Part shown: positions 2,279-38,605 of the stretch, piece by piece | How positions within the stretch are numbered: the first letter of the stretch is position 1 | How the letters are laid out: each line of letters starts with the position of its first letter | Source of the DNA: Spirogloea muscicola | Taxonomy: Eukaryota > Streptophyta > Zygnematophyceae > Spirogloeales > Spirogloeaceae | Direction: 5' to 3' | DNA: 39,081 nucleotides | Assembly (NCBI GenBank): GCA_009602725.1 | Contig: WELB01000101.1 | Coordinates: 426,014-465,094, forward strand | Translations under genes and position numbers: made by a program | Notes under the pieces: model-generated | Seen by the model: the letters and a program-made list of their open reading frames with translations, nothing else | Databases searched by the model: none | Told to the model about the DNA's origin: nothing

Positions 2279-2740
2279 GCTGCTGATATTCAAAGAGCGG
2301 CTGTTAAAGGCCAGCCAGATGCATACAGGTTTTCATGACGGAGCCACAGGCTAGGCAGACAGGGCGCTCTTAGTACCCCCGTGTCAGCAGTAAGCACTCA
2401 GATGAGCTGAGGGGAGGAAGAGCAACCCCGCCTACGCAAGCCAGAGGCTGCTACAAGGGCGCGACCGGCTCGGCGGTGCAAAGCAAGCACTTGGGACAGC
2501 TGAAGGGACATAGCTAAAACGCACGCGGTAGCAGGACACAAAAGCCAAACGCACCGAGCCTCCAGGAAGTGTTGTAACCTGTTCGCGGCGCCGCTGGTCA
2601 GCTTGAGAGGCCAGCAGCGACAGACCCACGACCCCCGTAACACCCGTTGATGTCCATGGCCAGGGGTAGAAGTTATAGCCAGCCGGGTGGTCCTTGTACT
2701 ATTGTTACTTCTTCTCTTCGTCCAACTTCACAGCATTGCC
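2279..2740 (-). mobile_element. 5'-truncated R2-like retrotransposon, same lineage as the 8.8-12.9 kb copy
   Basis: The sequence runs parallel to 8877-9340. It has the CTGCTGATATnAAAGA..GGCTGTTAAAGGCCAGCCAG hairpin (about 2298-2317), the TTCATGACGGAGCCA stretch, and then the C-terminal endonuclease coding end. Reading the minus strand, the last codons are S-E-C-L-L-L-T-R-G-Y followed by TAA (stop at 2370-2372). Similarity to the longer copy fades near 2740, which is the 5' truncation point. The coding part is degenerate (frame breaks), so this is a dead copy. Confidence 0.8.
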
Positions 2741-2819
2741 GAAATGGGGGGAGCAATGCAGGGCATGGGGAAGGAGGGAGTGATAGAGGGCTGATGAAGG
2801 TGGGGGTGGAAGCTTCTCC

Positions 2820-3090
2820 GACGAAAGGCGCGCGGCGCACATGAAATCGAAAGGAGGCCAAATAAGGAGAGAAGGGCTCGCTCATAGAGAAGAGGGCTAA
2901 ATAAAGCCAACACTGGAATTAGAGGGGGAAAATTCGTGTATTTGTAAGAAGCAAAGGCCAAATGGCCAAGTACAAAAGGTAAGCACATCTGGAGACGTAC
3001 TTCATCTACAGCTGATTGACCCGCTCAGTAACCACGCGTCAATTTATGAAGGCGCTAGTCGATGCCTGAATACTGGATGGCAGAATCAGA
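2820..3090 (-). mobile_element. Retrotransposon 3'-end shard (last codons plus 3' UTR)
   Basis: On the minus strand this begins in the last coding residues (degenerate, ending T-R-G-Y-stop near 3020-3040). It continues through a 3' UTR containing CAAATACACGAATTTTCC and GGCCATTTGGCC, and ends at the family terminus GCGCGCC near 2824. The same segment recurs at 38425-38600 and, more diverged, at 22531-22800. It is truncated to under 300 bp. Confidence 0.7.
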
Positions 3091-3529
3091 TGGCGCTATC
3101 GTTGCCCCTTTTTACGTTGCAGAATCTTCTGTGGGCTTGCTCTTCTCACTACTAGCCCCCCTCTGAAAATATGTTGAAGCCCTGTTGCAGAAGAAGGCGA
3201 TGCCTGTGAAAGGCGAGCACCAGAAGAAGTATACAAGAAAGAGCTGTGCTTTTATGAAGCACCTCTGGTCAGTACCAAATGTTCCCTTCCAATTCGTTTG
3301 ACTGCGTGCCTTCTCTTTCTTATCATTTGTTTTCCTTTGTCTTTCTCATTCTTACAGACAACGTATTGGCTTGGTCTGGCCTCCCTTTCATGAGCATCCA
3401 GGCTCCTTCTGCTTCTTCTCTCTATGACCTTGTTCGCTCGTGTGTGGGCTGGCTTCTCACAGCCCTCGGCCCCCTCGAAGCGTGTTCGCCCCCTTCGGAC
3501 CCTATCAATTGTCTTCGGACTGGCTTTTC

Positions 3530-4984
3530 CACAGCCCGCCCACTGGCTTACCTGGCTCGCGCGGCACACCTGGGGTGTTGGGCACAAGTGGCCTCCACAA
3601 TCTCAACGCGCTTCATCAGGAGGGGTCAGCCAGTACTGGCACCAGCAATAGCTGGAGTGGCAAATGGGACCCTGCCCTTTCAAACCTCCCTCTCTGACGT
3701 TCGCAGAGACCTGCTCCGCTCCTTCCCATCACTTGCGGCAGATCAGGTCGATTTTGCGGCGTGGGCAAGATGCTCTGATCTGAAGGCTCAAGCTCGTTTT
3801 TCACGCGCAGCCAATGAGCACGCCATGAGCCAGCTCCAAACTCTGCTCAAGGGAGAGAAGGCGCGCGGGGCGCATGAATTGAAAGGGAGGCCAATTCAAG
3901 CCAATACATTGTTCAGGCAGAGTCGAGTGCAGACTAAACAATGCTACATAATACGGAGACCTAATCTAAGGTACCTAAGATGACATTAGTACCCACGGGT
4001 GAGCACAAACAAATCTGACAAGCTAACTTGGGGAGCTGGAGCGCCGCCACGAAAGCCGGAGGCCTGACTTAGAGCGCGCCCTGCATCAAGGAGGATGGGC
4101 GTGGGCTCTCTCGTCTCCACTCCATCAGCTCTCGGGGGGCGTCGGAGTGGCTCAACGCTTTGCCGATCTATGAATCCCTCCGGCTCTCCGACAACCTTTT
4201 CCGGACGGCTGTCCACCACCATCTCGGCCTCCCTCCACTTTGTTTGGCTGGCATTCGACAGTGTGAATGTGGCCATCGTTGGGAGGATGAGATCTCCTTG
4301 GCAGCTCACATGCTTCGATGTGTCGAGGGAAGTGAACGTAATGCCTCTCACAATCTTCTCAGAGACGCAATGTATGGCTTGGTGCACGAGGCAGGTTATC
4401 ATGCGGCCATGGAGGTGCCGGGCATCATGCCGGTACTCCAGAAGCGTGGCAGGCCTTACGTCAGACGTCTGGACGTGGTGGCCACCCCCCGGAGTGGTGG
4501 GCCTCGTCTTCTCCTCGACGTCGTTCTCATCGACGCATTCCAATCAGGGGCACCCACACCGACTGTGCCAGGTTGGGCAACACATCATGCGGAGAGGAAG
4601 ACAGAGAGACACTACATTGACCACCCCCGGGGCGACCACTTCTTCCCATGCGCCATGGACATCTACGGCGGCTTTGGAACGAAGTGGTCTGCCCTCCTCC
4701 GTCGCCTGGCACTGCATGTTGATGCCCGCCGACGTAGTCGGGCGGGTAGCTTAGGCCATCCTAGTGTCTCGCAAGCCATCGTTGCATGTTATAGGATGAG
4801 GCTATCATTGAGTCTGCAGCGCTCCCAAGCACTCGCGATTCACCAGCGTGCTGGTCGTGCATTAGCCCAGGCTAATGGCTTCCGTGGAGGTGGTTCGGCT
4901 CCTCAGTATAGCTTGTCAGATATGCATGTGCTTACTCGGGGATATTTAGTGTCCCCCTTAGCCAGCTCATTACCCAGTTAACAG
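3530..4984 (+). pseudogene. Reverse transcriptase/endonuclease C-terminal part of copy A
   Basis: Before the insert the frame reads residues homologous to the thumb and linker of the longer copies (RPLAYLARAAHLGCW, then DFAAWARCSDLKAQ). After it, from about 4090, it reads RGLSRLHSISSRGASEW, the CCHC finger CECG..H-MLRC (about 4263-4322), a HNLLRDAMYG helix, and the nuclease core RRLDVV..LLLDVVLIDAF. This arrangement matches the R2 restriction-like endonuclease (CCHC, then a [K/R]PD..D core), which nicks the target so that the 3' OH primes reverse transcription. Here PD is LD and the usual lysine is not obvious. The 3' half (4160-4984) is an undamaged frame. Its conserved terminal LTRGY is followed by TTA instead of TAA, so the protein runs on for 11 extra residues. 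Confidence 0.8.
3853..4079 (-). mobile_element. Nested 3'-end retrotransposon insertion with target-site duplication
   Basis: The minus strand encodes the last residues (RALSQASGFRGGAPAPQ then SLSDLFVLTRGY, stop at 3986-3988). A 3' UTR of about 130 bp follows, ending GCGCGCCTTCTC at about 3855. It lies inside the coding frame of copy A. The flanks CTGCTCAAGGGA (3844-3855) and CTGCATCAAGGA (4081-4092) look like a 12-13 bp target-site duplication differing at one or two positions. Its UTR looks identical to copies at 7399, 13088 (reverse) and 13738. This indicates a recent target-primed insertion of a 5'-truncated transcript. Confidence 0.85.
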
Positions 4985-5045
4985 GACATTTGTAAGGCTA
5001 GAATTGGCCTCCCTATCAATTTCATGCGCACCGCGCGCCTTTCAG

Positions 5046-6760: not shown

Positions 6761-6763
6761 TAA

Positions 6764-6840
6764 GAGCGTGGCCAATTCAAGCCAATACATTGTTCAGACA
6801 AAAACTAGCGCAAAGATAAGGGGGCCTTGTTGACCCGTCA
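6764..6840 (-). mobile_element. Retrotransposon 3'-UTR shard
   Basis: GGCCAATTCAAGCCAATACATTGTTCAGA is the first half of the 3'-UTR block seen complete at 3857, 7402, 13088 (reverse) and 13738. It then diverges, with TTGACCCG near 6831 recalling the GACCCGCTCAGTAACC end. It is too short to assign to a lineage. Confidence 0.55.
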
Positions 6841-6869
6841 AACGACCACTACTGGAGCAGCGGGTTGAG

Positions 6870-7245
6870 TGGGGGGGCAGCAGTGGCAGGAGGGATGACA
6901 GGGGTGGTCATGAGTGCCGGGAAGGTTGATGACGGCCTTGGCAACCAGTCCTGCGTCCACGTCTGAAGCCGCTTGAGGAGGAGCGCAGCCGCAGTGGCAG
7001 GAGGGATGGCGGAGGGGGAAGGAGGGCCGGGAAGGTTGATGACGGCCTTGGCAACCAGTCCTGCGTCCACGTCTGAAGCCGCTTGAGGAGGAGCGCAGCC
7101 GCAGTGGCAGGAGGGATGGCGGAGGGGGAAGGAGGGCCGGGAAGGTTGATGACGGCCTTGGCAACCAGTCCTGCGTCCACGTCCGAAGCCGCTCGAGGAG
7201 GAGGGCAGCAGCCGTGGCAGGAGGGGTGGCGGGCGAGGGAAGGAG
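6870..7245. repeat. Minisatellite, 110-bp unit, about three copies
   Basis: GAAGGTTGATGACGGCCTTG starts at 6921, 7031 and 7141, giving an exact 110-bp period. The first two full units look nearly identical; the third diverges after about 100 bp, and a partial unit precedes 6921. Because 110 is not a multiple of three, successive units read in different frames. The minus strand nevertheless stays open in more than one frame, producing overlapping Pro/Ala/Ser-rich hypothetical peptides that should not be taken as genes. Confidence 0.9.
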
Positions 7246-7398
7246 GGGCGGGACGGCTGGGGCATCGAAGGCTGGGTGGCCGAAGGACCGGAACCTGCCG
7301 NGGCGGCGGCGGCGGGCGGGCGGCGGGGGGCAGCGGCGGGCCAAGCTCGGCCAAGCGCGGGCGAGAAAGCTCGAGCTCTTTCTTCTTCGGGGTCAGCA
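7246..7398. other. GC-rich segment with an ambiguous base
   Basis: A G+C-dense stretch rich in GGCGGC runs contains one N at 7301. It resembles the CpG-rich 5' ends of host genes in this window, but no coding exon or start could be supported. The N may be an unresolved base or a join. Confidence 0.4.
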
Positions 7399-7540
7399 AG
7401 AGAGAAGGCGCGCGGGGCGCATGAATTGAAAGGGAGGCCAATTCAAGCCAATACATTGTTCAGGCAGAGTCGAGTGCAGACTAAACAATGCTACATAATA
7501 CGGAGACCTAATCTAAGGTACCTAAGATGACATTAGTACC
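7399..7540 (-). mobile_element. Recent retrotransposon 3'-UTR copy
   Basis: About 138 bp look identical to the UTR part of the insertions at 3857 and 13738, and to the reverse complement of 13088-13228. On the minus strand it begins with GGTACTAATGTCATC, just at the stop codon of the parent element (TAC TAA), and ends GCGCGCCTTCTCTC at 7399. It is therefore a UTR-only copy. Confidence 0.85.
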
Positions 7541-8047
7541 AAGGGGAAGCTTCCTCAGGGCCTATTTGCACCGGGACAGAACGGACGGACGCCTGGCGTC
7601 CGCCCCGGTGGGGGGTTGGACGCGGCCACGGAGGCCGAGGCCGCCTGCCCGTGCAGAACTGTATACGTAATTTCGTGTATTGGGGTGGAGGGTGCCAGCT
7701 GTTCCTTTTCGGCAGGCCGAAGGAGGAATGCGTGTATATTAAGAGATGGGGAGGCCATGTGTGGCCAAGTACAAAGGCAAGCACATTAGGCCGAAGGGGG
7801 TGGACGGGGTGAAGTCCAGAATGGTTAATAGCAGCCATTGCGGGCGGCTGTGCAGCGGAAGATTGTCGAGAGAGTAACGGCGTGCCAGCGGCTGGGCAAG
7901 AAGAAGAAGTGGTACTCCCAATGGGGGCAAGGGCTGCGAAAAGCCAGCCCAAAAGAATTGACAAAGGTTCGAAGGGGCCTAAGAGCGTTGAGCAGCTACA
8001 AAGGGGCCTGAGGATGCGATGGGAAAAACAGGGGGAGGATGGATCAC
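7541..8047 (-). repeat. Retroelement 3'-UTR blocks downstream of copy C, with hairpin
   Basis: On the minus strand this holds the block CAGGCCCCTTTGTAGCTGCT, then CTTTGTCAATTCTTTTGGGC, the hairpin at 7931-7950 (GGGCTGGCTTTTCGCAGCCC) and CCCCATTGGGAGTACCAC. The same block occurs at 23390-23510, 36262-36380 and 38610-38725, and reversed at 16745-16870. Further down, 7735-7795 matches the GTACTTGGCCA..AATATACACG UTR type. No convincing gene is present although a 143-residue frame is open on the minus strand. Confidence 0.65.
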
Positions 8048-8778
8048 TCAGTAATTACGAGTGAGGAGCAGATCCGACAGACTAGCTGCCGGGAAGCTCT
8101 CACCCTGACGAAAGCCAGAGGCCGCAGCAAGAGCACGGCCAGCACGCAGATGCAGAGCGTGGGCCATGGACCGCTGGAGGGACACTGACAATCTCATCCG
8201 GTATACCTGAGCCCACGAGCCAGCTGCATTAAAGTCAGTCGGTTCGCCGCGCCGGCGGGATACAGCACGCCGCGCGAGCCTGGCCAGCAGGTCGAGCCAC
8301 TGGGACCCGAGAGCTCCATGCACGTCCACTGCCAGGGGAATGAATTCGTCTGCAGCCGGGTGGTCGGCGTGCTTGGCCGCCTTGCTGCGAGCAGCCTTCG
8401 CCGCAGCATGGCCAGCCCGCGAGGCAGAGAGCCCCGGGTTGGAGCGGTCGACCACATCGGTGGTGACGACGTCGGCGATGATGCGCGCGCCGCCGCCCGG
8501 CGTGGACGCCACCAGGTCGACACGGCGCGTATGGAGTCCGTCGGCCTTCTGGAGGATGGGCATGACGGAGGCGTTCTCCATTGCGACCGTGTAGCCAGCC
8601 TCTTGAAAGATGCCGTACATGGCATCGCGCAGAAGATCGTGGGCCGCTGTACGTTCACCTCCAGTGGCGCAGCGGAGGATGTGTGCCGCCAGCTCCGTCG
8701 GGTCCGTTGACCGCTCCCCACACTCGCACTGCAGCAGGCGATGGGTGGCTGTGCGGAACCGAGAAAAGCGAGACGGCG
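8048..8778 (-). pseudogene. 5'-truncated R2-like endonuclease fragment (copy C)
   Basis: The minus strand encodes, in order, a CCHC finger (CECG..ELAAHILRC, about 8660-8720) and the helix HDLLRDAMYGIFQEAGY. The nuclease core RRVDLV..IIADVVTTDVV, the conserved DEFIPLAVDVHGALGSQW block and the tail SGFRQGES..SLSDLLLTRNY-stop (stop at 8048-8050) follow. From the finger to the stop the frame is intact, so it may be a fairly young truncation. Upstream of about 8770 homology stops, next to the 3' end of copy B. With FRQG and a TRNY ending it belongs to the same lineage as the copies at 35700, 36044 and 36386. Confidence 0.85.
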
Positions 8779-8968
8779 CTCAGAGGGCTGAAGTGGAAGG
8801 GCGGCCATCAAGCCACTACACTGTACAGGCAAAAGCCAGTGCGGGATCTGGGGCAATGGTTGTGAGGAAATAAAGCGGCTGCTGATATGAAAGAATCGGC
8901 TGTGAAATGCCAGCCAGATGCATACAGGTGTTCATGACGAAGCCAAAGGCTAGGCAGACAGGGCGCCC

Positions 8969-9619
8969 TCAATACCCCCGTGTCAGCAGTAGGAAGTCAG
9001 ATAAGCTGAGGGGAGGAAGAGCAACCCCGCTGCGCAAGCCAGAGGCTGCTGCAAGGGCTCGACCAGCGCGGCGGTGCAAAGCAAGCGCTTGGGAGCGCTG
9101 CAGGGACATAGACAATCGGTAGCAGGACACAAGACCCAAAGGCACCGAGCCACCGGGAAGGGCAGCACCCTGCTCCCGGCGCCGCTGGTCAGCTTGAGAG
9201 GCCAGCAGCGACAGTAACGAGGACCACCGACCCCCGTAACACCCATGGATGCCCATGGCCAGGGGGTAAAAGGTACCACCCGCCGGGTGGTCCTTGTACT
9301 TGTGCAGCTTCTTCCGTTCGGCCACCTTCACAGCGTAGCCGGTCTCAGAAGTAATGGGGCCCTTCGTCCGGAAGCTGTCGGTGAGGACAACGTCCATGAG
9401 GAGCCGCTTGCCACCTCCCAGGGGGACGCTGACCAGATCGACACGCCTCGTCCGAGGGACCCCATCGCGGAGTAGGATGGGCATCACCCCAGTGCTCTCC
9501 AACGCCACATGATATCCCGCCTCCTTGACAATGCCATACATGGCGTCATGTAGGAGGTTGTGGGAGCCCGTGCGCTCACTGCCTTTGGCACACCTGAGCA
9601 TGTGGTCACCCATGAGCAA
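8969..9619 (-). pseudogene. Copy B CCHC end and restriction-like endonuclease
   Basis: This is the last open segment of copy B. It carries the H-MLRC half of the CCHC finger, then HNLLHDAMYGIVKEAGY, the nuclease core RRVDLVSVPLGGGKRLLMDV (acidic residues about 13 apart), the FYPLAMGIHGCYGG block and the terminal tail PPLSLSDFLLLTRGY with TGA at 8969-8971. It follows the R2 endonuclease layout with VD in place of PD. The segment has no internal lesion. Confidence 0.8.
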
Positions 9620-10954
9620 TGCATCATGCTCAATAAGCCCACATCACATTGGGTCACCCCTGCCAAGCACAGGGATGGCAAGCCAAGACGGCGGCGCATA
9701 GCATCGCAAAACAAAGCATTCTCCATCCGCAAACCCGCATGCAAAGGCAAAGCGCGGAGCCACTCAGACGCTCCCAGAGACGAAACAGATAGGAGCCGAG
9801 CCTGGCCTCGAGCATCTCCTTGGAGGAGACTCCGGAGATGCTCCAGTGGTTGCTCGTCTGCGGCACGGGTAAACCGCGATTGAGCCTTGACATCAGAAAC
9901 GTCAGCCCAGGCAGCAAAACTAACAGGCTCATTTACCAGAGGCGGGTATGCGGCAAAGAGGTCCTGTTGGCATGCTTTGAGAGTCACTTGGAAAGGCAGA
10001 CTCACCTGAACCACGGTACTGATGTGAGGCGCCAACACACGTTGTTGCCCAAGGAGGAATCGTCCAGATATGGACGAAGCCATCTGGGCCCAGCAGCCAA
10101 GGTACGCTGGTCTGCACAAGCGGACCAAGGGGCGACAACCAAGCCCACCGAGACGGATGGGCCGCGTACATTGCACCAGTGCTGCTGGGGACTGCTCTAG
10201 GAGTGGGTGAGCAATCATGTCAGCTAGGCATCGTTGGAGCTTGACATCTATGGATGCATAGACCTCATCCATGGTAACCGAAGGTGGGACCGTTCTTAAG
10301 AGGTAACCCGGCCGCTGTGCCACACTCCTGGTCAAAATGGCCACTGCCAACTGAGAGTCCCCGAGGGTGGGGAGCTCTGGCAGGACCTGCATATATCCTT
10401 GGAGACGAGCAAGGACAGCACCCTCCGAGAAAGACGGGTCCCCTACAGGCACTCCCAAGATCTTCAAACCGCCCTCTGGTGTCTGACAAGATGTAGGCAA
10501 CGAGGGAAGGAGGGAAAGAGGGATGCCGTCGGGGGACCAGGCAGAGCACTTGGCAGTACTTATCCCAAGCCCGATGAGCTGGAGCTGGTGCTGAAGCGTG
10601 CCAAAAGCTCGCAGCACCTCCTCTGGGGGGCCGAGGAGCGTAATATCATCCGCGTAACTCGGGAGGAGAACGCCAGGGTGAGCGCTCGCCGTGTTGCGCA
10701 AAGCACGGTGATGCGCCAGAGCAAAGAGAAAACCACCCATGGGATCACCTTGACGTGTCCCCGTCTTTGACTGCAAAACAGCCAAAGAAGTGTGGCTGCT
10801 CCCCACCTGTGTGCCTGCCCACCACAGCAATGCAGATGGCGAGCCATACATGCAGCGGAAGTGAGGGAGGAGGGTGGGAAAGTACTGCCTTAGCTCCTCG
10901 GCGATAACCTGCCGATCCACGGAGTTGAAGGCGTTCTGTACATCCACGCTCAGG
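9484..10954 (-). pseudogene. Copy B reverse transcriptase palm, thumb and linker
   Basis: The segment holds motif A (VDVQNAFN), motif B (GTRQGDPMGG) and the catalytic YADD of motif C (about 10645-10656). The post-palm blocks STAKCSAWSPDG and LKILGVPVGDP, the thumb, and the linker GGLGCRPLVRLCRPAYLGCW follow. The catalytic aspartates are present. Near 9620-9640 the frame slips just at the CCHC finger: the first Cys is there (TQCD), but the second is lost in this frame. The remaining reading is out of frame and not homologous. Confidence 0.8.
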
Positions 10955-10955
10955 G

Positions 10956-11492
10956 TCAGCCAATGGGGTTTATATCCAGTGCCGCTCGTACCCCGTGCAC
11001 CAGGGTCTCAGCGCCAGCACGCATCCCAGCCCCAAACTGGTGGGGATGGAAGTGCGCCTGGGCATCGTCCTGGATCTGCATGATCAGGGTGCGCCCCACA
11101 AGGTGCGCCAGAACCTCCGCCATCGAGATAGGACGCACTCCGCCGTTGTCCTTCTGCAAAGCAATGAGATTGCTTGTGCAGAGGACTGCGCCTACACGAT
11201 GGGTGAGGTGCCCACGCGCAAAATGTTGCGCGACCCTATGCAACAGATCGAAATCCTCCGAGTCCTCCTCCCCATATAACTCCCGCAAGTGCTCAAAGAG
11301 CATGCCAGATGGACCCCCGGCGACTGCCTTGCGGCTACTCACAATCGCCCGACGGATCGCCCGACGGGTCCAGTCCACCGGTTCAGCAGGCATGAAGCTC
11401 TCCATCCATGTATCTAATCTTCGCGGGGCCGAAGGATGGAGCTGCTCGAGTGCGGCCAAGGTTGCCGCATCATGCGGTGCTGCTGTTGAGGG
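10956..11492 (-). pseudogene. Copy B reverse transcriptase, fingers segment
   Basis: This continues copy B in frame after the amber codon. It contains the PSGMLFEHLRELYG block and the palm-proximal VRPISMAEVLAHLVGRTL block (the conserved RP(I/V)s motif of non-LTR reverse transcriptases), then HFHPHQFG and the helix leading to motif A. It ends with a one-base frame slip in a C run (AAACCCCA near 10956-10965). Restoring one base would connect it to the next segment; I read this as a one-nucleotide loss or a consensus error. Confidence 0.75.
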
Positions 11493-12884
11493 CTACAAGG
11501 CTTGGGCAGCCCTGCCAAGGTCGCCGGCTCGCCCATATCGGATGGCACGTCGTTTGCCCGCCTCCTTAATATCGGATTCCGACGTGGTGGGCCGATAGTT
11601 GGCTTGCGCAAGTTGCGCAGCCGCTTGGTGCTTTGCAAGTAGCAGCTGCCACTCTCCACCTTCAAACAGGTGGAGGCGCAGCAGCAGCTCCTTGCGACCT
11701 GCCTTCCCCTGCGGCAGGCGACCAAGCAAGAGTCGCGGAAACAACACAAACACAGACCATGCAGCCTCATCCTCGCTGTCACGAGCCAGACGTGTCAGGA
11801 GGGGCCGAAGGGCTCGCCGTATGTGGGGCCGGGCCCAATACGGGATGTGTCGTAGGAGCTGCGCGTTGGTCGTCCGCAGGATCTCGGAGACGTCCACGCT
11901 CTCCGCCCACCGCCAGTGTTCTGCCGTAGGCCCTGGTGGTGGTGGTGGCATCGCCCCTCTTGTAGGGGCTCTGCGAGCCCGAGCGGTGGCGGATGCCTCT
12001 GCCTGCTGCGCCTCTCTGATAGCCAAACGCACGCAGGCCCGCTCGTGCGAGCTCAGACCCACCTTGTTGGCACATCGCCGCCGGCAGAGCCGGCAGCGGA
12101 GCTCAACAGGCGGGCAAGAGGTTGCCTCCGCAGGGGGCCGGAGGTCCTCTTGGCCCTGCTCCCCTTCCCCAGGTGCAGCTGATACAGCGGCATCGCCAGC
12201 CACGGGCCCGCCAGCATCACCAGCGCCACTGCCACCACTCGCCGAACCCATGGCGACAACCACTTCCAAGCGCCGCCTGGCTCCTCCGCTGCGGCGACCT
12301 CCCCTCCAAGATGCAGGGGGGTTTGCGGAAGCCGCCTGCCCTGCAGACGCGGAGGTGCACGGCGTTGGTTGTGGGTGGGGCTCGAAGCCCGTGAGTAGAG
12401 CAGCATGAGAAGCAGTGGGAGAGGATACTGGGGGAGGGGGTCCTGTGCCCCTCTCCATGTTGTCCTCCTCCATGGCAATCTCGGATGATGTTGGGGCCGT
12501 GGTTGGGATAGCCGTCTCGTCCATCCCTGGGCCTGGTGGGGCCTGGGAAGAGCGCGTAGCGCAGCAGCTCCTGGAGCTCCGGTGCACTGCTCTCGCAATG
12601 GCCGCCAGTGCGGTTGCCTCCCCGGCACAAGTGAGCCGAGGGTTTGATCGCAGCCGGCCGCGCCAGCTTGTGGGCTGGGCAGCCGGACCCATGTCCGCCG
12701 CACGAGGCTGTGCAAGCTGCCTAGGTGCCGTATCCTCCCTCGCCACCGCCGTGGCCGCCGCGGCGCACGGCGTGGCATGAGGGACCCCGCCAGCTGGGGG
12801 CCGCGCTGCGGGCGGCACTGTGCGCGGCGAGCTCCGAGGAGCGCGCCGCGCAGGTGCGCGCCGTGCCTTGGCAGGCGGCGGCAT
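11493..12884 (-). pseudogene. Copy B N-terminal segment: zinc finger and linker
   Basis: I chose the ATG at 12884 (MPPPAKARR) because upstream codons translate the 3'-UTR hairpin of a neighbouring element. The segment is low in complexity for about 220 residues. It then carries a finger of form CRLC-x12-H-x3-C (about 12040-12102), as in R2-type elements, where N-terminal fingers bind target DNA. The conserved linker FVLFPRLLLGRLPQGKAG with a G-E-W-Q-L-L motif follows, typical of RT proteins of this group. It ends at an amber codon, and the downstream segment continues in the same frame, so the stop is a single-base lesion or a recoded site. Confidence 0.75.
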
Positions 12885-13008
12885 GCGCGCCCGGCGGCGC
12901 TCAGGCGCTCGAGCGCCCCGGGGGGTTGGCAAGGCGCCACGGCGCCCGGGGGGGCGGCAAAGGAAAGGCAGGGAGGGAGGTAGAAGAAGGCTCGCCCATG
13001 GAGAAAGA

Positions 13009-13028
13009 GGGGCTGGCAAAGCCAGCCC
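13009..13028 (-). repeat. Family hairpin upstream of copy B
   Basis: GGGGCTGGCAAAGCCAGCCC is a near-perfect palindrome. On the minus strand it precedes copy B by about 50-120 bp. It is flanked by AGAATGGACAATGTCCAAAG (13033-13052), the same flank as at 430 and 23085. Confidence 0.7.
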
Positions 13029-13085
13029 AAAAAGAATGGACAATGTCCAAAGCCGAAGAAGGAGATGCCGAGGAAGGACTCCTCT

Positions 13086-13232
13086 ACCCGTGGGTACTAA
13101 TGTCATCTTAGGTACCTTAGATTAGGTCTCCGTATTATGTAGCATTGTTTAGTCTGCACTCGACTCTGCCTGAACAATGTATTGGCTTGAATTGGCCTCC
13201 CTTTCAATTCATGCGCCCCGCGCGCCTTCTCT
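13086..13232 (+). mobile_element. Recent retrotransposon 3' end, UTR-only copy
   Basis: The plus strand starts at ACCCGTGGGTACTAATG (the last codons T-R-G-Y and stop). It then runs through a UTR that looks identical in reverse complement to 3857, 7402 and 13738, ending GCGCGCCTTCTCTC near 13230. CTCTAC occurs on both sides (about 13080-13086 and 13234-13239) and may be a short target duplication, though the CT-rich context weakens this. Confidence 0.8.
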
Positions 13233-13399
13233 CTCTCTACTCTACCAAGAGGTAGAGGATGCCCCGAGCCCGGCGGGCTGATTCCCCGCGGGGCGACGAC
13301 GGGGCCGCATTCAGAATCTCCGGAGGACCCGGCACGAGTCGCGGCAGCCACTCCCCCCGCTGGGCCTGCAGCGGCCCCCGAGCCAAGTTTCTCTGGGAG

Positions 13400-13560
13400 C
13401 CAAGTTTCTCTGACCTGAGGCTGCTCAGCAGGGGTTACTGAGTGCTTCGTCGCTGCTTATCTTCTCTCTGGCTTGTTTTTCTTCGTGCTTCCCCTGGCCC
13501 CTTCTCGTACTTTGTCCATTCCTTTTTGGGCTGGCCTTTCCCAGCCCCTATCCTCAATGG
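13400..13560 (+). mobile_element. Retrotransposon 3'-end shard with hairpin
   Basis: The plus strand encodes only the last residues SFSDLRLLSRGY with TGA at 13439-13441. It is followed by a UTR carrying TTTGTCCATTCC and the hairpin at 13528-13547 (GGGCTGG..CCAGCCC). Upstream, 13255-13400 is GC-rich and not recognisable. Confidence 0.7.
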
Positions 13561-13733
13561 GCGAGCCCTTCTCCGAGGCCACCTACCTCGTCGGCCCGGC
13601 CGCTGCATTTACTAGGGGGACGAAAGGAAAGCTTCCAGGAGAGGGCGATGGCTGTGAGAGGCCAGCCGAGAAAAAAGGATGAAGGATATGACAGTAGAAC
13701 CTGATTCCGCTAGTCAGATCCTCTAGCTCCTCT

Positions 13734-13968
13734 GGAAGAGAGAAGGCGCGCGGGGCGCATGAATTGAAAGGGAGGCCAATTCAAGCCAATACATTGTTCA
13801 GGCAGAGTCGAGTGCAGACTAAACAATGCTACATAATACGGAGACCTAATCTAAGGTACCTAAGATGACATTAGTACCCACGGATGAGCACAAACAAATC
13901 TGACAAGCTAACTTGGGGAGCTGGAGCGCCGCCACGAAAGCCGGAGGCCTGACTTAGAGAGGAAGAGA
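13734..13968 (-). mobile_element. Recent 5'-truncated retrotransposon insertion with target-site duplication
   Basis: The insert runs from about 13740 to 13960. The minus strand encodes LSQASGFRGGAPAPQ then SLSDLFVLIRGY with a stop at about 13867-13869, followed by the UTR that looks identical to 3857, 7402 and 13088. GGAAGAGA occurs at 13734-13741 and 13961-13968, at the two junctions, as expected for a target-site duplication. Over 210 bp it matches the 3853-4079 insert almost base for base; one visible difference changes CACGGG to CACGGA. Confidence 0.85.
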
Positions 13969-15483: not shown

Positions 15484-16000
15484 TCAGTACCCATGAGTGA
15501 ACACATACATATTGGACAAGCACTCTGGGGAGATGGAGCATCGCCACGGATGCCAGTGGCCTGGCTTAGAGTGCGCCCGGCACGGGATGAATAGCCAAAG
15601 CTTGGAAGCTCTAATATATAAGGAAGCGGTGCATTCTGTATATTGCATCTGATGCCTGCGGAATGCTAGTGTGCCTCAAGCTGTCCCTCCGACTGCGACA
15701 ACGCGTGTATCCCAGCTGGGCCAGATGCTGGAGGAGGGGGACCAATGCTTACCATAGCCGCATGCATATCGCACGCATAGAAGTGATCTCCTCGTGGTGG
15801 GCCTTGAAATGCCTCTCCTTTTTGTGCTTCGAGTGGGTCAATGCCCACCCATGGACAGCGACATGGGTGCTCTCGCTTTGACAACGTGAATGAGTCGAGG
15901 AGGAGGATAGGCCACAGCTCTGGGGTGTAGCGACGAAGTTTGGCCGCCGCAGATAAGGCTGTGTTTGTTGGTAACGGGCATGATGCCCGACACATAAATA
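15484..16000 (-). pseudogene. Degenerate R2-like endonuclease fragment (copy G)
   Basis: The minus strand shows a frame-broken relic of the copy A type endonuclease. FVATPQSCGLSSSS and the following residues track the RRLDVVATPRSGGPRLLL core. Then HHEEITSMRAICM tracks the HPRGDHFFPCAMDIYG block, and RALSQATGIRGDAPSPQ leads to V-F-T-H-G-Y-stop (15484-15486). A segment between about 15590 and 15690 is missing or unrecognisable. It is much more diverged than the other copies and so probably older. Confidence 0.65.
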
Positions 16001-16009
16001 TAAGAGAGT

Positions 16010-22530: not shown

Positions 22531-22800
22531 GGCGCAGTGTGCACATGAAATGAATGGCTAGCCAAGGAAGCCAGTACACCGTGTGTAAGACGAATAACAG
22601 GACACCAACGTGAGGCATGGGCAAAAACGAACGCCTTCCGAAAGGGAGTCTATGCCCCTCATTCGCCATCGCCTTCTGCCTGTGTGGCCAAGTACAAAGC
22701 CAAGTACATAAACAAGAGTGCAATACCTGCTGCTAAGCTGACCCGCTCAGTAACTACGAGTCAGAACATAGAAGTCGCTAACTGGTGTCCGAATTGACAA
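22531..22800 (-). mobile_element. Retrotransposon 3'-end shard
   Basis: The minus strand encodes S-D-F-Y-V-L-T-R-S-Y followed by TGA near 22748-22780. The UTR contains GTACTTGGC and ends at GCAC..TGCGCC near 22531. It is the same subfamily as 2820-3090 and 38425-38600 but more diverged. Confidence 0.7.
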
Positions 22801-22924: not shown

Positions 22925-23039
22925 GAGCTGGAAGCATATCCTCACGTCGAGCATATCCCAGACTTGAAGAAATATATGCAAGTTAGGGTTTGGAAGCGAG
23001 GACCCATGCAGCCGAAAGTGTCAATTGCGGCCGGTAGAA

Positions 23040-23160
23040 GAAAGAGCGCGCCCATAGAGAAAGGGGGCCAGCAAAGCCAGCCCAGAAAGAATGGACAATG
23101 TCAAAAGCCAAAAAACACAAAAACAAAAAACACACAGCTAGGCAGCTAGAGAAGAAGACA
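23040..23160 (-). repeat. Retroelement hairpin flank block
   Basis: GCCAGCAAAGCCAGCCCAGA followed by AGAATGGACAATGTCAAAAG matches the blocks at 415-465 and 13010-13055. The stem is imperfect here. An A-rich run follows (23110-23140). Confidence 0.5.
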
Positions 23161-23179
23161 CGACGAAATCACAGGAAGC

Positions 23180-23345
23180 TCAATACCCCCGGGTGAGCAA
23201 CATCAGGTCGGAGTAGCTCGACGCAGGAAATGATGCATCCAGACGCGACCCAGAAGCAGCCGCGATAGCGCGGCCCGCACGCGAGTGGACGGCATAGGCG
23301 AGGGAGCGTTGGTAGAAGGTTCTCACTGCGGGGGTAGTCGGAGTA
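23180..23345 (-). pseudogene. Retrotransposon C-terminal shard (copy E)
   Basis: The minus strand encodes TFYQRSLAYAVHSRAGRAIA, then ASGSRLDASFPASSYSDL, then MLLTRGY with TGA at 23180-23182. It covers the last 50 residues of the endonuclease protein only. The residues differ enough from copies A, B and C to suggest a fourth lineage. Confidence 0.75.
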
Positions 23346-23384
23346 GGTCGGAGCTTTCTCTGCTCTGCACCTCCCACTGTGTGG

Positions 23385-23540
23385 CCATTGCATCCTCAGG
23401 CCCCTTTGTAGCTGCTCACCGCTCTTAGGCCCCTCTGAACCTTTGTGAATTCTTTTTGGGCTGGCTTTTCGCAGCCCTTGCCCCCATTGGGAGTGCCACT
23501 TCTTTCTTTTCATTCTTCTGGGCTGGCTTTTCACAGCCTC
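23385..23540 (+). repeat. Retroelement 3'-UTR block with two hairpins
   Basis: CAGGCCCCTTTGTAGCTGCT leads to hairpins at 23458-23477 (GGGCTGGCTTTTCGCAGCCC) and 23520-23538 (GGGCTGGCTTTTCACAGCC), separated by CCCCATTGGGAGTGCCACTT. Orientation is plus, opposite to the copy E coding shard just before it. Confidence 0.75.
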
Positions 23541-23892: not shown

Positions 23893-23952
23893 NNNNNNNN
23901 NNNNNNNNNNNNNNNNNNNNNNNNNNNNNNNNNNNNNNNNNNNNNNNNNNNN
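23893..23952. other. Assembly gap (60 N)
   Basis: Sixty Ns lie in a GC-rich, CCG-rich stretch at the 5' end of the pTAC2 gene. The true gap size may differ. The start codon and presequence of that gene are probably in or before it. Confidence 0.95.
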
Positions 23953-29003: not shown

Positions 29004-29159
29004 CGTTGGCATGCACCGAGGTCCATAGTATGGATGCTTGTACAGTCCTCTACACCCGCCAGCTCCATTGAGCTGCAGTTAGCACTTGTTTACGCAATAA
29101 GTTCTCAAGCTACCTTAGTTGAGTAGCCTGGCCTCAGAGCGCACGCCAAGTGTACGTCT

Positions 29160-30105: not shown

Positions 30106-30112
30106 GCGCCGN

Positions 30113-31239
30113 GTGTCTGACCAAGATTTCTGGTGGCGAGGGGACGCCATTGCGGTTCCTGACTGCAATGTCCTACGAAGTACTACCATGCAAGAGATGC
30201 AAGAGCCACCCTACAGTGGTCATTGGCTTTGAGGGAAAAACAGAAAGCTATTCAGCTTCTCTTTTGGTGGCCAGGCTTGAAAGCCCAAGTACAATCTTTT
30301 GTGAAGACTTGCGCCACCTGCCAGCGTAGTAAGGTACGCTCTCACAAGCCTGCCGGGTTGCTCCAACCTTTGTAGATTCCTCCGCGGACCTGGTCTGATG
30401 TCAGTGTGGATATCATCACCCAACTGCCTAAGACGAAAACAGGCTATGATGGATGCCATTGTCGCGTCTGTGGATCGTCTAAATAAAATGGTGCATTTTG
30501 CGCCTACGACCACCAAAGTGTCCGCTCAGGAATTTGCTATATTCGTTGACTGTGTGTGGAAACTGCACGGAGTGCCCGAGCGATTCGTGTCAGATCGCGA
30601 CCCTCGCTTCACGGGTTACTTCTGGCGCGAAGTGTGCAGGCTTATTGGCACTAAGCAATCCTTATCCACGGCATTCCGCTCCCAAACCGATGGTCGAACA
30701 GAACGAATGAATCGTCTTTTGGAAGACGTGTTACGGCATTTCGTAAACCCCAGCCAGACTGACTGGGATAAGTATCTTGCTCCAGCGGAATACGCTGTGA
30801 ACAATGCCTGTCATGAGTCCACCAAAAACACCTCTTTCTTCCTTAACTACGGTCAGCATCCCCGAGCACCTTTACAGGTGGGGAGGCCGGAACGCGTGCC
30901 GGCCGCAACAACCTTTACCGGTCACCTCCTGGAAGCTCAGCGGAGGGCTAGGCAATGCTTGGAGATTGCCCAGCAACGGCAAAAGGCGTGTGCTAATCGA
31001 CATCGTCGAGATATATCCTTCGACGTGGGTGCTCAAGGGTGCTTCTGAGCACAAAGCACCTCTCCATGCGGGCTGTCGGTACGCATGAATTGCTGCCAAA
31101 GTGGGTTGGACCCTCTCGTGTAGTGCGCGGTATCAGTCCGGTCGCATATGAGCTGGAAAAAGCGGTACACTGGCAAATCCACAAGGTCTCTACGTGTCCC
31201 AGCTCGAACCACTCTATTCGGACGGTCGTGTCCAATCCC
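30113..31239 (+). mobile_element. Ty3/gypsy pol relic: zinc-binding domain, integrase and C-terminal region
   Basis: On the plus strand this reads RGDAIAVPDCNVLRS, then PPYSGH (H of the HHCC finger) and TCATCQRSK (its CC). It continues with SDVSVDIITQLPKTK (first integrase Asp), FVSDRDPRF (second Asp), TDGRTER (Glu, in the DD35E spacing) and the post-integrase LLPKWVGPSRVVRGISPVAY, ending near DGRVQSP. There is an in-frame TAG near 30376, frameshifts near 30450 and 31040, and other small lesions. No protease, RT, RNase H core or LTR is present. It abuts MED11 on one side and the GPKOW coding sequence on the other. Confidence 0.85.
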
Positions 31240-35159: not shown

Positions 35160-35202
35160 GGCGGCGGCAGGCGCCGGAGGCGCGGCCGCCGCAGAGAAGG
35201 TG

Positions 35203-35310
35203 GCTGCTCATGTAAAAACATGAATACGGCTGCTAATATCAAAAGAGCGGCTGTAGAAGCCAGGTCCATGCAGAGGGTATTCATGACCATATTAGCGGAG
35301 CTGATGTGGA
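35203..35310 (-). mobile_element. Retrotransposon tail shard next to a gene start
   Basis: GTGGCTGCTCATGTAAAAAC, then GGCTGCTAATATCAAAAG, then GGTATTCATGACCATATTAG. It begins about 45 bp upstream of the ATG of the charged-protein gene, inside its presumed 5' UTR or core promoter. It is closest to the shard at 23562-23645. The hairpin arm is partly lost (GGCTGTAGAAGCCAGG). Confidence 0.7.
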
Positions 35311-35340
35311 GGGCCGGCAGTGAAAGCAAGCCGAGAAAGT

Positions 35341-35441
35341 AGAGTGCATCTACATTACTGCAGAGCTGGGCAGAGGGGGCGGAGGTTGCAATGCTAAAAA
35401 ATGTCGAGAATACATGGAGTGCATCCACGTTACTGCAAAGC
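35341..35441. repeat. Short direct repeat pair
   Basis: GAGTGCATCTACATTACTGC (from 35342) recurs as GAGTGCATCCACGTTACTGC (from 35418) with two differences, 76 bp apart. No known element. Confidence 0.7.
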
Positions 35442-35639
35442 CGCAATCTGAGCTAAGAGAGAGAGAGGAAGTGGCTCTCCCACGCAGTCAACTTGCGAGC
35501 AGGCCGCCCTGTGGCTGCTACATCTGGGTCTAGGCGGGGTGCCTCTTCCCCAGCTGCGAATTACTCCGTCAGCTGCTGCTCACTCGTGCTTACTAAGCTT
35601 CCATCTGCAGTAGTGTCGTGCTAGCTGTGTGGTTTTTAG

Positions 35640-35960
35640 GCGCCTTCTGGATCTTTGGACCTTGTCCATCCTTTTGGGCTGGCCTTTCTCAGCCCCTACC
35701 TTCGTGCTCTCGCTGCAGCCTCTGGCTTTCGTCAGGGGAATTGTTTTCCGGCAGGTAGTCTGTCGGATTTGCGGAACCTCATTCGTAGTTATTGAGTGGT
35801 TCATCCTACACCAACTCTGAGATAGCGCATTTGGCCCCTTCGTAATTTGGCCCCTTCGAACCTTGTGAGAAGCCAGCTTCTCGCAGCCCGTGCCCCCAAT
35901 GGGAGAGCCACTTCCCTACCTTCTACGGGAGAGCACTTTCCCTCCGAAGGGGGCGAGGGG
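35640..35960 (+). mobile_element. Retrotransposon 3'-end shard with upstream hairpin (copy H)
   Basis: The hairpin at 35676-35695 (GGGCTGGCCTTTCTCAGCCC) is followed within 10 bp by coding for RALAAASGFRQGNCFPAGS then LSDLRNLIRSY with TGA at 35793-35795. The UTR then has the GGCCCCTTCGAACCTTGT block. FRQG and the RSY ending place it with copies C, D and I. Only about 32 residues of coding sequence remain. Confidence 0.75.
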
Positions 35961-36155
35961 CTGTGAACAGCCAGCCCAAAAAGACTTGACAAGGTCCGAA
36001 GGGGCCAAAAGCGCTGTCTCAGAGCTTGGATAGGATGGACCACTTAGTAACCACGAGTGAGGAGCCGCCATTCGAAAGACGAGCAGCTGGAAAGCAATCC
36101 CCCCTGACGAAAGCCAGAGGCTGCAGCTAGAACACGGCCGGCACGCAGGTAGAAG
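35945..36155 (-). mobile_element. Retrotransposon 3'-end shard (copy I)
   Basis: The minus strand encodes AFYLRAGRVLAAASGFRQGG, then a short diverged stretch and LLTRGY with TAA at 36044-36046. Its UTR carries a hairpin at 35957-35977 (GGGGCTGTGAACAGCCAGCCC). It lies head-on against copy H. Confidence 0.75.
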
Positions 36156-36261
36156 GCGAAAGGGGGCGGAGGTCTCCCCACCCCTTCAGCCGCCTTTGGC
36201 AGGACTACCTTACCTCCCCTTCTCGCACGCTTCCCTCTGTGTCCTCCCCCCGTTCTGACAT

Positions 36262-36385
36262 AGCTTCTTCAGGCCCCTTCGTAGCTGCTATCCATTTTTT
36301 GGCCCCTTCGAACCTTTGTCAATTCATTTCGGGCTTGCTTTTCACAGCCCTTGCCCCCATTGGGAGTGCCACTTCTTCTGTGTAG
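36262..36385 (+). repeat. Retroelement 3'-UTR block with hairpin, upstream of copy D
   Basis: TTCAGGCCCCTTCGTAGCTG, then CTTTGTCAATTCATTTCGGG, then the hairpin at 36331-36350 (GGGCTTGCTTTTCACAGCCC, one mismatch) and CCCCATTGGGAGTGCCACTT. The body of copy D begins at once afterwards. Confidence 0.75.
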
Positions 36386-38053
36386 CCCCCACTCTTTGCT
36401 TAGTACCTTGCTTTCTGCTTTCTTTGCCACCCTGGAGGAGCACCTGAAGGAGCTTGGTCTGGACATCTGCGCATCGAAGTGTAGCGCTTGGTCCCCCCAA
36501 GGAAGGACAGCCCTCTCCCGCCTACCCCCCGGCTGCCTGACGCCAGACGGGGGCATCACACTCCTCGGGATTCCCTTGGGCTCACCTGCCTTCGTGGAGG
36601 AGCAGCTACGCGGCAAGCTGCAGGAGCACCTCAAGCCGGCGGCCCGCCTCCCTGAGCTGCATGACATGCAGCTCGGGCTCGCCATGCTGACGCGCAGCAT
36701 TTCCCAACGTCCCCTGTACCTGGCGCGCGCACTCCCCCCCTCCCCGGCGGCGCAGGCGGCTTATGAGACCTTTGATGCAGGTATCCTGGCCAGCACAGCG
36801 GCCCTGGTCCAACACCCGGCCTTCCTGGAGACGCCGGCCGCCGTGCACCAGGCCTCCCTGCCTGTGAGCCGCGGGGGTCTGGGCTGCCGGCCGTTGGCTC
36901 GTGCCTGCCGGGCAGCCTACCTGGGGAGCTGGTCACAGGTCGCGGCTTCGGTGGCCCAAGCTTCCTCTGGCATGGGAGTCGCCTCCTGGAGCCCGCAGTG
37001 GCGGACGTCGAGACCGGCGAGTGGCCATTCCAAGTGGATCTGCGCACAGCCCGGGATGCGCTGCTGGCGGACCACCCCGCCCTGGTGCCGCGGGCCGTCC
37101 CTTTTGCGCACCTCTCGCGCACGGCTGACCTCCGGGCCCAAGCTCGCTACATGGCGGAGGTCGATGCGGCCGCATTCACCAAGGCGATGGCACTTCTGCC
37201 TCCGGCCGACCTCCGGAGCCGCGCGCGGCTGCACTCGGCTTCATCACCAGGTGCGGCAGCTTGGCTGTCTGTGCTCCCTATCTATAACGCGCTGCGCATG
37301 CAGGACGACGCCTTCGATACGGCTGTCCACCGTCTACTCGGCCTCCACCCACCCTGCCTCAATGGGATACAACAGTGTGAGTGCGGCGAGCGCAGCCCAG
37401 ACGCATGCTCAGGTGCGCACGGGGAGGGGAGCGGACCGCCACCCACGACTTGTTGCGTAACGCGATGTACGGCATTTTCGTGGAGGCCGGCTACACCGTG
37501 GCGCTGGAACACCCAGCATCATGCCCCTGACCGTCGGGGCGGATGGCCGCCCTCACACCCGGCGGGCCGATCTCGTCGCCAGTGCGCTGGGCGGGGGGCC
37601 CCAGGTAATTGCCGACGTCGTTACCACGGACTGTGTTGTTTCCGGCTCCGCCAAGCGTTCCTCCGAGGAGGCGGGCTATGCAGTCCGCCAGGCGGCGGGC
37701 GCAAAGGAACGAAAGAACGCGGATCACCCCGTAGGCGACGAGTTTGTCCCACTCGCCGTCGACGTGCACGGAGCCTTTGGGACCAAATGGCTCGACCTTC
37801 TCCACCGCCTTGCTCGGCGTGCGGTGGCCCCCCGCCACGGGCAGAACGGCGAGCAGCCTGGCTTTAACCTCGCCGGGTCCCTCGCTCAGGTGTTCAGGAT
37901 GCGCCTCGCCATTTCCCCTCCAGCGGTCTCTTGCGTTTTGCCGTACACCTGCGTGCCGGCCGCGCCCTGGCGGCTGCCTCCGGGTTTCGTCAGGGCGACG
38001 TCTTCCCGCCATCTAGCTATTCGGACCTGCACTTGCTGACCAGAAGTTACTGA
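36386..38053 (+). pseudogene. 5'-truncated, frameshifted R2-like retrotransposon (copy D)
   Basis: The plus strand starts just after the YADD position and reads LDICASKCSAWSPQGR, ITLLGIPLGSP, the thumb, and GGLGCRPLARACRAAYLGSW. After a frame slip near 36985 it continues (ADVETGEWPFQVDLRTARDA, then PIYNALRMQDDAFDTAVHRL). The finger start QCECGE is present, but the region near 37400-37500 is damaged by a second slip. The nuclease core RRADLVASALGGGPQVIADV and the VDVHGAFGTKWLDL block follow. A third slip near 37915 leads to SGFRQGDV..SDLHLLTRSY with TGA at 38051-38053. Three frameshifts and the missing 5' half make it a pseudogene of the copy C lineage. Confidence 0.85.
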
Positions 38054-38340
38054 GAGCCTCCTTGTCGTCTTAGCACTCAGTCCCCTGCTTTCTGCGCCAT
38101 TCGGCTCCTTTTGACCTTGTCCATTCCTTTTGGGCTGGCTTCTCCCAGCCACCCGTCAATTCGGCCGCGCTTATCTTCTTTCTGCTCCATCCGGCTCCCT
38201 CAGAACTTTGTCCATTCCTTTGGGCTGGCCTCTCACAGCCACCAGTCAATCTGGCCGCGCTTTCTTTTGCTGGAAGCGCTGTTCCTTTCTTTTGCTGGCC
38301 CCTTAGGAATCTGTACATTTGCGTATTCTTTGTGGACAGC
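38054..38340 (+). repeat. Tandem hairpin units in the 3' UTR of copy D
   Basis: Two units of about 90 bp follow the stop codon. Each has TTTGTCCATTCC or a close variant, then a hairpin (38132-38150, GGGCTGGCTTCTCCCAGCC; 38222-38240, GGGCTGGCCTCTCACAGCC), then CACC(C/A)GTCAATnnGGCCGCGC. This is the clearest case of the hairpin being duplicated in tandem in one UTR. Confidence 0.8.
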
Positions 38341-38424
38341 CAGCGCGCCTGGGGGATGTCAAGTGTGTGTTGATTGAGGGAGGGCCGAAGGCAAAATACA
38401 TTGACATGATCTGGGGAGGCGGGA

Positions 38425-38605
38425 GGATTTCGTGTATTTGTAACAAACGAAGGCCAAATGGCCAAGTACAAAGGGCAAGCACATCTGAAGACCTACACAA
38501 CCCTACAGCAGATTGACCCGCTCAGTAACCACGGTTAAATGCATAAAGGTCGCTAATCGATGCCTGAACACTTAGATGGCCGATACGAAGCCCTTCTGCC
38601 ACCAT
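38425..38605 (-). mobile_element. Retrotransposon 3'-end shard
   Basis: The minus strand encodes S-D-L-Y-A-F-N-R-G-Y then TGA near 38520-38555. The UTR carries GTACTTGGCCATTTGGCC and CAAATACACGAAATCC. It matches 2925-3090 closely over about 160 bp. Confidence 0.75.

Follow-up and report, generated by a model that had tools for sequence, protein, structure and literature searches.

A recurrent protein ending, S-x-S-D-L-x-L-L-T-R-x-Tyr-COOH, closes the coding part of retroelement copies in a 39,081-nucleotide stretch of the genome of the zygnematophycean alga Spirogloea muscicola (contig WELB01000101.1, positions 426,014 to 465,094; the whole stretch is hereafter called the window). With good confidence, this ending is read as the conserved C-terminal peptide of the single open reading frame (ORF) of an R2-like retrotransposon superfamily that carries a restriction-like endonuclease (RLE) and comprises about six lineages; a docking role within the integration enzyme is proposed for it. 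The number of such endings in the window is attributed to the copies being numerous, mostly 5'-truncated, and nested.

An earlier note on this DNA had listed 16 such endings, and a six-frame reading recovered each of them in intact or degenerate form, displaced by no more than a few bases from its listed coordinate. Unbroken endings of the SDL/SDF type, each followed by a stop codon, lie at 3986 (SDLFVLTRGY), 8969 (SDFLLLTRGY), 23180 (SDLMLLTRGY), and 38053 (SDLHLLTRSY), and that at 8048 (SDLLLTRNY) is an otherwise unbroken SDL type with one residue missing. One or a few changes, the stop being retained, mark the endings at 2370 (SECLLLTRGY), 13441 (SDLRLLSRGY), 13869 (SDLFVLIRGY), 22750 (SDFYVLTRSY), 35795 (SDLRNLIRSY), 36044 (FEWRLLTRGY), and 38530 (SDLYAFNRGY); the ending at 4947 (SDMHVLTRGYL) has lost its stop. 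Remnants are seen at 3030 (KLTRGY and stop, the upstream part being out of frame), at 15486 (VFTHGY and stop), and near 13105, where STRGY alone is left before a stop at 13098-13100, as read by eye from the sequence. A 17th ending, LLLTRAY and stop on the plus strand at 35573-35596, was absent from the earlier note. The four groups of adjoining residues recognised there (FRGG, LRSG, FRQG, and SRLD) are real, and the endings at 3030, 22750, and 38530 make up a fifth.

In the window, the short form [LV][TSI]R[GSNTHA][YF]-stop is matched 13 times; 200 first-order Markov sequences averaged 0.06 matches and never held more than 1, and the ending is therefore not a product of chance. That the repetition stems from coincidence or from an artefact of assembly, as the richness of the region in repeats might suggest, is considered virtually inconceivable in view of this excess and of the occurrence of copies on many contigs. 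Moreover, one exact 25-mer of an FRQG_TY-type terminus (that of the copy at 23370-23503) occurs 565 + 582 = 1147 times in the genome, against 0 for its reversed control, and 100 listed places of this 25-mer are spread along contigs C1-C7; flanks of the elements vary.

Three uninterrupted frames elsewhere in the genome (153 Mb in 471 contigs were searched; L-numbers designate the copies fetched from it) place the ending at the C-terminus of an RLE non-LTR (long terminal repeat) retrotransposon ORF, in agreement with the description of these sites as retroelement 3' ends. These frames, L069 (1418 aa), L070 (1488 aa), and L071 (1316 aa), terminate in SDLMLLTRGY, SDFLLLTRGY, and SDLFVLSRGY, respectively; L070 and L071 are 45-47% identical to L069, and residues S, S, D, L, R, G, and Y of the last 12 are common to all. 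A reverse transcriptase (RT) domain, PF00078 (RVT_1), was detected by Pfam in all three (E 2.5e-13 to 3.9e-17). When a profile of the three ORFs was compared with solved structures, R2 ranked first (E 1.1e-07); the three-sequence profile was required because phmmer with one ORF gave just weak matches, all to group II intron and retron-type RTs (E 0.12-0.45). An N-terminal Cys/His finger, invariant at C378, C381, H394, and C398 in the alignment of the three ORFs, had no Pfam match in them. Downstream of the RT, the endonuclease motif D-x14-D (RRxDxV...DVV) is present in 6/6 aligned sequences, preceded by a knuckle that is spaced C-x-C-x12-H-x3-C and departs from the canonical CX2-3CX7-8HX4C in all six rows. 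Neither an apurinic/apyrimidinic-type endonuclease (APE) nor an RNase H was found in the three full ORFs by Pfam at E<=1, nor was a Ulp1-like protease found in them by Pfam, and an Rfam scan of the window returned no match. On these sequence comparisons and the structure-model searches described below, the elements bearing the ending are classed as RLE-type non-LTR retrotransposons whose RT and RLE are nearest to those of R2 among solved structures.

Constancy of the extreme C-terminus across diverged lineages, as the earlier note had proposed, is borne out by the full ORFs and by about six lineages. Genome searches with three window proteins yielded at least 153, 153, and 136 matches (150, 150, and 134 of about 19,000-21,000 candidates scored), figures that are lower bounds because few of the first-look candidates were scored. 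Among the LRSG matches listed with open frames of 1100-2000 aa, the final Tyr is reached in 14/18; the tail of three others (L077-L079) lies behind a frameshift or rearrangement, and L080 runs into masked bases. The FRGG matches listed in the same size range reach the Tyr in 6/7 cases, one of them with an inner stop, and the seventh is broken. The open-frame matches listed do not refute the tail by way of the test set in the earlier note, copies with an intact RT that lack it. A further sample was anchored on the upstream RAGRA motif without demanding the tail, and 52 of its 80 distinct copies end in D-x(5,6)-..Y-stop, although proteins carrying the tail had served to fetch these loci, which tilts the sample towards it and means that it is not blind. 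By reading of the listing, 11 of the other 28 carry a recognisable lesioned tail and the remainder are frameshifted or cut; no common alternative C-terminus was seen among the non-tail copies of this 80-copy sample.

The copies do not belong to a single young lineage either, given about six groups and the 45-47% identity of the full ORFs. The tree (20 rows, 117 columns) has two deep clades with LRSG, FRGG, SRRS/SRL, and QGTHF as starred groups; the FRQG group (89/92) is unstarred and DVF is a single row, so that the lineages number about six. Each of the three long copies in the window belongs to a different group of the tree, from which LRSG_w was omitted, being the window copy W8969. The row FRQG_NYb in the representatives, the substitution analysis, and the tree represents another copy within L008, one of SRRS type, and was counted as SRRS in within- and between-group comparisons.

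As to whether the tail is kept for its peptide or for its RNA, the overlap with an RNA structure recognised by the RT that the earlier note had suggested is not supported. In the aligned copies, about 10 residues of variable linker stand between a last conserved block, YRMRLS..QRS..RAGRALAAASG, and the tail. Among 18 representatives (153 pairs), the proportions of synonymous (pS) and nonsynonymous (pN) differences were 0.677 and 0.181 in the last ten codons, 0.703 and 0.177 in the conserved block, 0.696 and 0.419 in the linker, and 0.699 and 0.320 in the rest of the region. The synonymous conservation that would be expected of an RNA signal is therefore absent from the tail codons, pS being 0.677 against 0.70 elsewhere; the way in which the representatives were chosen, with several tail residues prescribed, lowers pN there but leaves pS unaffected. 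Of 110 ten-codon windows, 39 had a pS below that of the tail and 11 a pN below it. The 52 tails of the RAGRA-anchored sample draw on five Arg, four Ser (TCN), four Thr, and two Tyr codons and on three stops, and their 36 distinct 33-nt sequences encode 21 peptides. As read from these coding sequences, selection on the tail acts on amino acids, since synonymous sites vary as freely as elsewhere.

That the tail is constrained since its RNA forms part of a signal read by the RT is accordingly regarded as very improbable, and this hypothesis was set aside on the substitution proportions, the codon counts, and the folding; the location of the repeat in the untranslated region (UTR), outside the tail, points the same way. 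In its favour, no more than about 100-160 nt separate the tail from the element 3' end, ACCCGTGGGT forms an inverted repeat in one lineage, and the tail of L070 folds better than 185/200 shuffles (z -1.50). Across five lineages, however, the last 45-46 nt gave fold z-scores of +0.97, -1.50, -0.80, +0.87, and -0.81, which are not unusual; all but that of L070 are unremarkable. Furthermore, the copies at 7404-7546 and 13086-13229 are without all or nearly all of the tail codons, a point tempered by the fact that a longer RNA can be recognised before the copy becomes 5'-truncated.

The 3' UTR itself is about 100-160 nt long. Among the copies examined, the UTRs of LRSG, FRQG, SRRS, SRL, QGTHF, and DVF carry an inverted repeat with the core (G)GGCTG...CAGCC(C), placed some 20-30 nt ahead of a terminus rich in pyrimidines (CTT...); in FRGG copies the corresponding position is taken by GGCT...GGCC and GCGC repeats. 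With the two arms of the inverted repeat in their true register, 80.6% of cells pair, as against at most 60% when slid, and RNAalifold proposes a 6-pair stem for an alignment that includes the FRGG rows. Covariation was not significant, with shuffles reaching the pairing value in 45/500 cases and the covariation score in 37/500, and a single pair shows changes on both sides; UTR fold z-scores were +0.54 (L018), +0.88 (L070), -1.02 (L071), -1.37 (L053), and -2.64 (L069). The repeat was hence not accepted as a proven RNA structure, shuffles matching its pairing and covariation too often. By likeness to R2, in which a UTR core serves as the RT entry signal (PMC10499050), it may be considered a candidate entry signal.

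As to what the peptide does, it is hypothesised that the tail docks back on the RLE, knuckle, or linker part of the protein, where it would help to hold the target DNA or the ribonucleoprotein; it would thus be a structural part of the integration enzyme that acts within the same molecule, and would be needed for integration. The alternative, a short linear motif whose free C-terminal Tyr binds a host factor outside the enzyme fold, is thought rather unlikely. Its position at the extreme C-terminus, the variable linker before it (pN 0.419), and the final Tyr in all 18 pattern-selected representatives would suit such a motif; on the other hand, no partner is known and no docking-motif match turned up, in work that included no search aimed at such motifs.

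The main reading as a whole has to be weighed against several limiting observations, besides the lean of the RAGRA-anchored sample described above. The pattern used to choose the 18 representatives prescribes several tail residues. The tail is no more conserved than the RAGRALAAASG block, and 11/110 windows have a lower pN. AlphaFold modelled the C-terminal 243 residues of one window copy weakly (mean predicted local distance difference test score, pLDDT, 52.6); a 291-aa model (A3, mean pLDDT 45.2) is weak as well, and the tail falls below pLDDT 50 in both. With the 243-residue model, the first five rows of a Foldseek search are R2 chains (E 4.4e-04 to 2.5e-03), at low template-modelling (TM) scores of 0.26-0.36. 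The first seven rows of a VIA search are likewise R2, followed by MspJI and a spliceosome chain, but their Z of 5.8-7.6 lies below 8, for which the tool itself cautions that no more than a shared arrangement may be indicated; the best match (Z 7.6) has a root-mean-square deviation of 3.4 over 109 residues. The tail has no structural counterpart in this comparison because the R2 alignments stop before it, at model residue 170-187 of 243 in 6/7 rows and at 220 in one.

The endings, put at about one per 2.5 kb in the earlier note, are numerous and unevenly spaced; 0/16 fall between 23.2 and 35.7 kb. By library search, 24 element 3' ends lie in the window, several of them too short to hold the tail. 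Among 256 copies reaching the 3' terminus, library sources included, the median aligned length is 145 nt. The density is attributed to copy number (one terminus alone has at least 1147 copies), to 5' truncation during target-primed reverse transcription, and to nesting of copies, some joined on the same strand directly behind older 3' ends. TTCT or CTTC occurs in the last 10 nt upstream of 47/196 truncated copies, a modest excess over 28/189 control windows.

Nesting was investigated in loci fetched around elements, as opposed to a random genome sample; L001, L031, and L040, which overlap the window, were dropped from the copy-length, 3'-end, neighbour, and RAGRA-anchored analyses. Of 170 3' ends found, 163 entered the neighbour analyses, and the uncorrected count behind them was 39 same-strand and 17 opposite-strand neighbours, with 34 and 37 of 1630 in the control. 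A strong two-strand insertion hotspot, which these figures might imply, was rejected as the uncorrected count included remainders of older interrupted elements. A 5' boundary was visible for 103/163 ends, the other 60 being uninformative. Directly behind the 103 ends, same-strand element DNA was found in 20 cases (14 new copies and 6 remainders) and opposite-strand element DNA in 14 (5 new copies and 9 remainders). Same-strand new copies within 15 nt therefore amount to 14/103 against 34/1630 in the control (p 2.5e-07), a figure to be taken as an upper one because several of the 14, about half, have their start within a coding region and could be remainders that escaped recognition. Opposite-strand new copies (5/103 against 37/1630) show no significant excess (p 0.10). 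Joining behind 3' ends is thus weaker once remainders are removed, with the same-strand excess alone significant. At position +20 element DNA stands behind 67/163 ends, a lower share than the 66% of 3180 random points of these element-centred loci.

The same-strand neighbours may instead have arisen by template jumping between RNAs during one insertion, without later insertion into an old 3' end, an explanation given slightly less than an even chance. It is favoured by the confinement of the significant excess to same-strand neighbours after correction, and the term "template jumping" does occur in papers on R2 enzymes. The neighbours are nevertheless often of different lineages (e.g., L043, L023, and L050), insertion that favoured a single strand of a pyrimidine tract would look alike, and the half or so of the 14 that begin within coding sequence could again be undetected remainders. 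Template jumping and strand-oriented insertion would both fit the same-strand excess. More speculatively, two constant 3'-end modules might persist across the deep lineages, the C-terminal docking peptide and a UTR terminus made of the inverted repeat and a pyrimidine-rich CTTCT end; the terminus would serve both as RNA entry signal and as preferred strand-oriented landing site, so that insertions line up head to tail in an RLE-based, genome-wide counterpart of Zepp self-nesting. This broader scheme is viewed as doubtful.

Compared with known systems, the elements resemble R2 and the other RLE clades (NeSL/Utopia, R4, HERO, and CRE) in their single ORF, N-terminal Cys/His zinc finger, RT, C-terminal knuckle, PD-(D/E)xK-type endonuclease, and 5'-truncated copies. 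They differ from R2 in being dispersed and not restricted to one 28S rDNA site. They differ from R2 and these clades alike in the spacing of the knuckle, C-x-C-x12-H-x3-C in place of the CX2-3CX7-8HX4C given for RLE elements (PMC5678591), and in the SDLxLLTRxY tail, which was not met in the available passages describing R2-type proteins, the tail letters themselves not having been searched for. No prior description of the tail, or of 3'-end self-nesting by RLE elements, was found in a survey that did not query the tail letters and had Repbase and subscription papers outside its scope. The Ulp1-like protease of NeSL/Utopia had no Pfam match in the three full ORFs, yet it is not carried by all members of that clade either (PMC4640811). 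For the small-RNA-gene targets of NeSL/Utopia, the Rfam scan of the window gave no match.

Among green algal elements, Zepp and Zepp-like LINEs (long interspersed nuclear elements) share nested copies and an abundance of 3' ends, insertion of Zepp into existing copies being described as giving tandem arrays mostly of 3' ends (PMC8226300, PMC3446292); the present elements show nesting and a same-strand excess behind 3' ends. Zepp, however, is an L1-clade element (PMC8226300), whereas the present elements carry an RLE and no APE domain by Pfam in the three full ORFs, and Zepp clusters once per chromosome in Coccomyxa, unlike the listed 3' termini spread along contigs C1-C7. Dualen/RandI are also non-LTR elements of green algae that carry an RLE and have 3' repeats other than poly(A), such as the (CTTT)n 3' repeat of a short interspersed nuclear element (SINE) with a RandI tail (PMC3747384). 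Dualen carries both APE and RLE (PMC4640811); in the present case neither APE nor RNase H was found in 3/3 full ORFs (Pfam, E<=1), and identity with Dualen was rejected on this ground.

The window copies are 72% to 100% identical to their nearest library copy. The most complete is a near full-length LRSG-lineage element with a broken frame at 8873..12958 (-), 97.8% identical to L070 over 4.1 kb; its ORF pieces lie at 8969-9643, 9484-11007 (containing RVT_1), 10956-11492, and 11493-13121 (-), and its tail SDFLLLTRGY with stop ends at 8969. A second LRSG 3' end at 2276..2741 (-; tail SECLLLTRGY with stop ending at 2370) is 84% identical. A 5'-truncated FRQG-lineage copy at 7906..8739 (-), assigned by tree group, retains the RLE domain, the tail (ending at 8048), and the 3' UTR, with 97.5% identity to L002. 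Two diverged FRQG 3' ends are found at 35703..35914 (+; tail ending at 35795; 73.7% identity) and 35942..36158 (-; tail ending at 36044; 72.3%), and the former begins directly behind the 17th tail LLLTRAY-stop and its inverted-repeat 3' UTR at 35573..35702 (+). An FRQG_TY 3' UTR without tail at 23370..23503 (+; 96.3%) contains the inverted repeat GGGCTGGC...CAGCCC and a terminal CACTTCT.

An FRGG_Q-lineage copy at 4081..5041 (+; tail 4916-4945, stop lost; UTR running to CGCGCGCCTT; 95.9% identity to L041) stands head to head with an FRGG_V-lineage 3' end, thus of a different sublineage, at 3857..4085 (-; tail ending at 3986; 99.6% identity to L057). Further FRGG_V copies comprise a 3' end at 13742..13959 (-; tail SDLFVLIRGY with stop ending near 13871; 99.1%), a copy with only the last few codons and the 3' UTR at 13086..13229 (+; stop at 13098-13100; 100% identity to L057), and a 3' UTR-only copy at 7404..7546 (-; 98.6%) that is absent from the earlier note's list. 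The remaining lineages are represented by a QGTHF 3' end at 13396..13570 (+; tail SDLRLLSRGY with stop ending at 13441; 87%), an SRL 3' end at 23036..23312 (-; tail SDLMLLTRGY with stop ending at 23180; 97.5%), and a DVF copy at 37608..38172 (+; tail SDLHLLTRSY with stop ending at 38053; 78.6%), behind which lies a second DVF 3' end at 38190-38262 (90.4%). The six-frame reading supplies the remnant VFTHGY-stop at 15484..15510 (-) and the fifth-group tails, namely LTRSY-stop at 22747..22764 (-), with the UTR TGAGCGGGTCA..., and those at 3025-3042 and with a stop at 38522 (both -).

The tail and UTR region of this fifth group has at least 40 genome copies (40 of 2628 candidates scored). The group was seen only as short copies, and the four loci L073-L076 show no long upstream open frame; a lineage close to extinction, or a SINE-like derivative endowed with the tail codons, may account for it.

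Other features were noted in passing. The tail-free interval of 23.2-35.7 kb contains pentatricopeptide-repeat (PPR) and integrase reading frames: PPR matches lie at 24806-25612 (+), with neighbouring PPR frames to about 27220 by eye, and an integrase core (rve) match at 30305-31048 (+), with E 3.7e-05 but below Pfam's cut-off, is probably an LTR retrotransposon remnant. A 110-bp tandem repeat (3.4 copies, 93% matches) spans 6880-7253, and runs of N comprise 60 at 23893-23952 and single ones at 7301 and 30112. Outside the window, leucine-rich-repeat text was recognised by reading in L072, and in L028, shortly after 1219 (+), about 40 nt of UTR follow a QGTHF-lineage stop before TTTAGGG repeats. 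These repeats are presumably plant-type telomere units, and perhaps stem from repair with telomere DNA or from an insertion of chimaeric make-up. Together with the PPR-like frames and the leucine-rich-repeat text, they may tentatively hint at a green alga or a relative as the source.

For the 3' end of a retrotransposon, the comparison provides a clear answer on whether protein or RNA is conserved, and it marks out the last ten residues of an R2-like integration enzyme as a module that can be deleted. Dating of the abundant nested copies would also make it possible to distinguish template jumping from self-targeted insertion among RLE elements.

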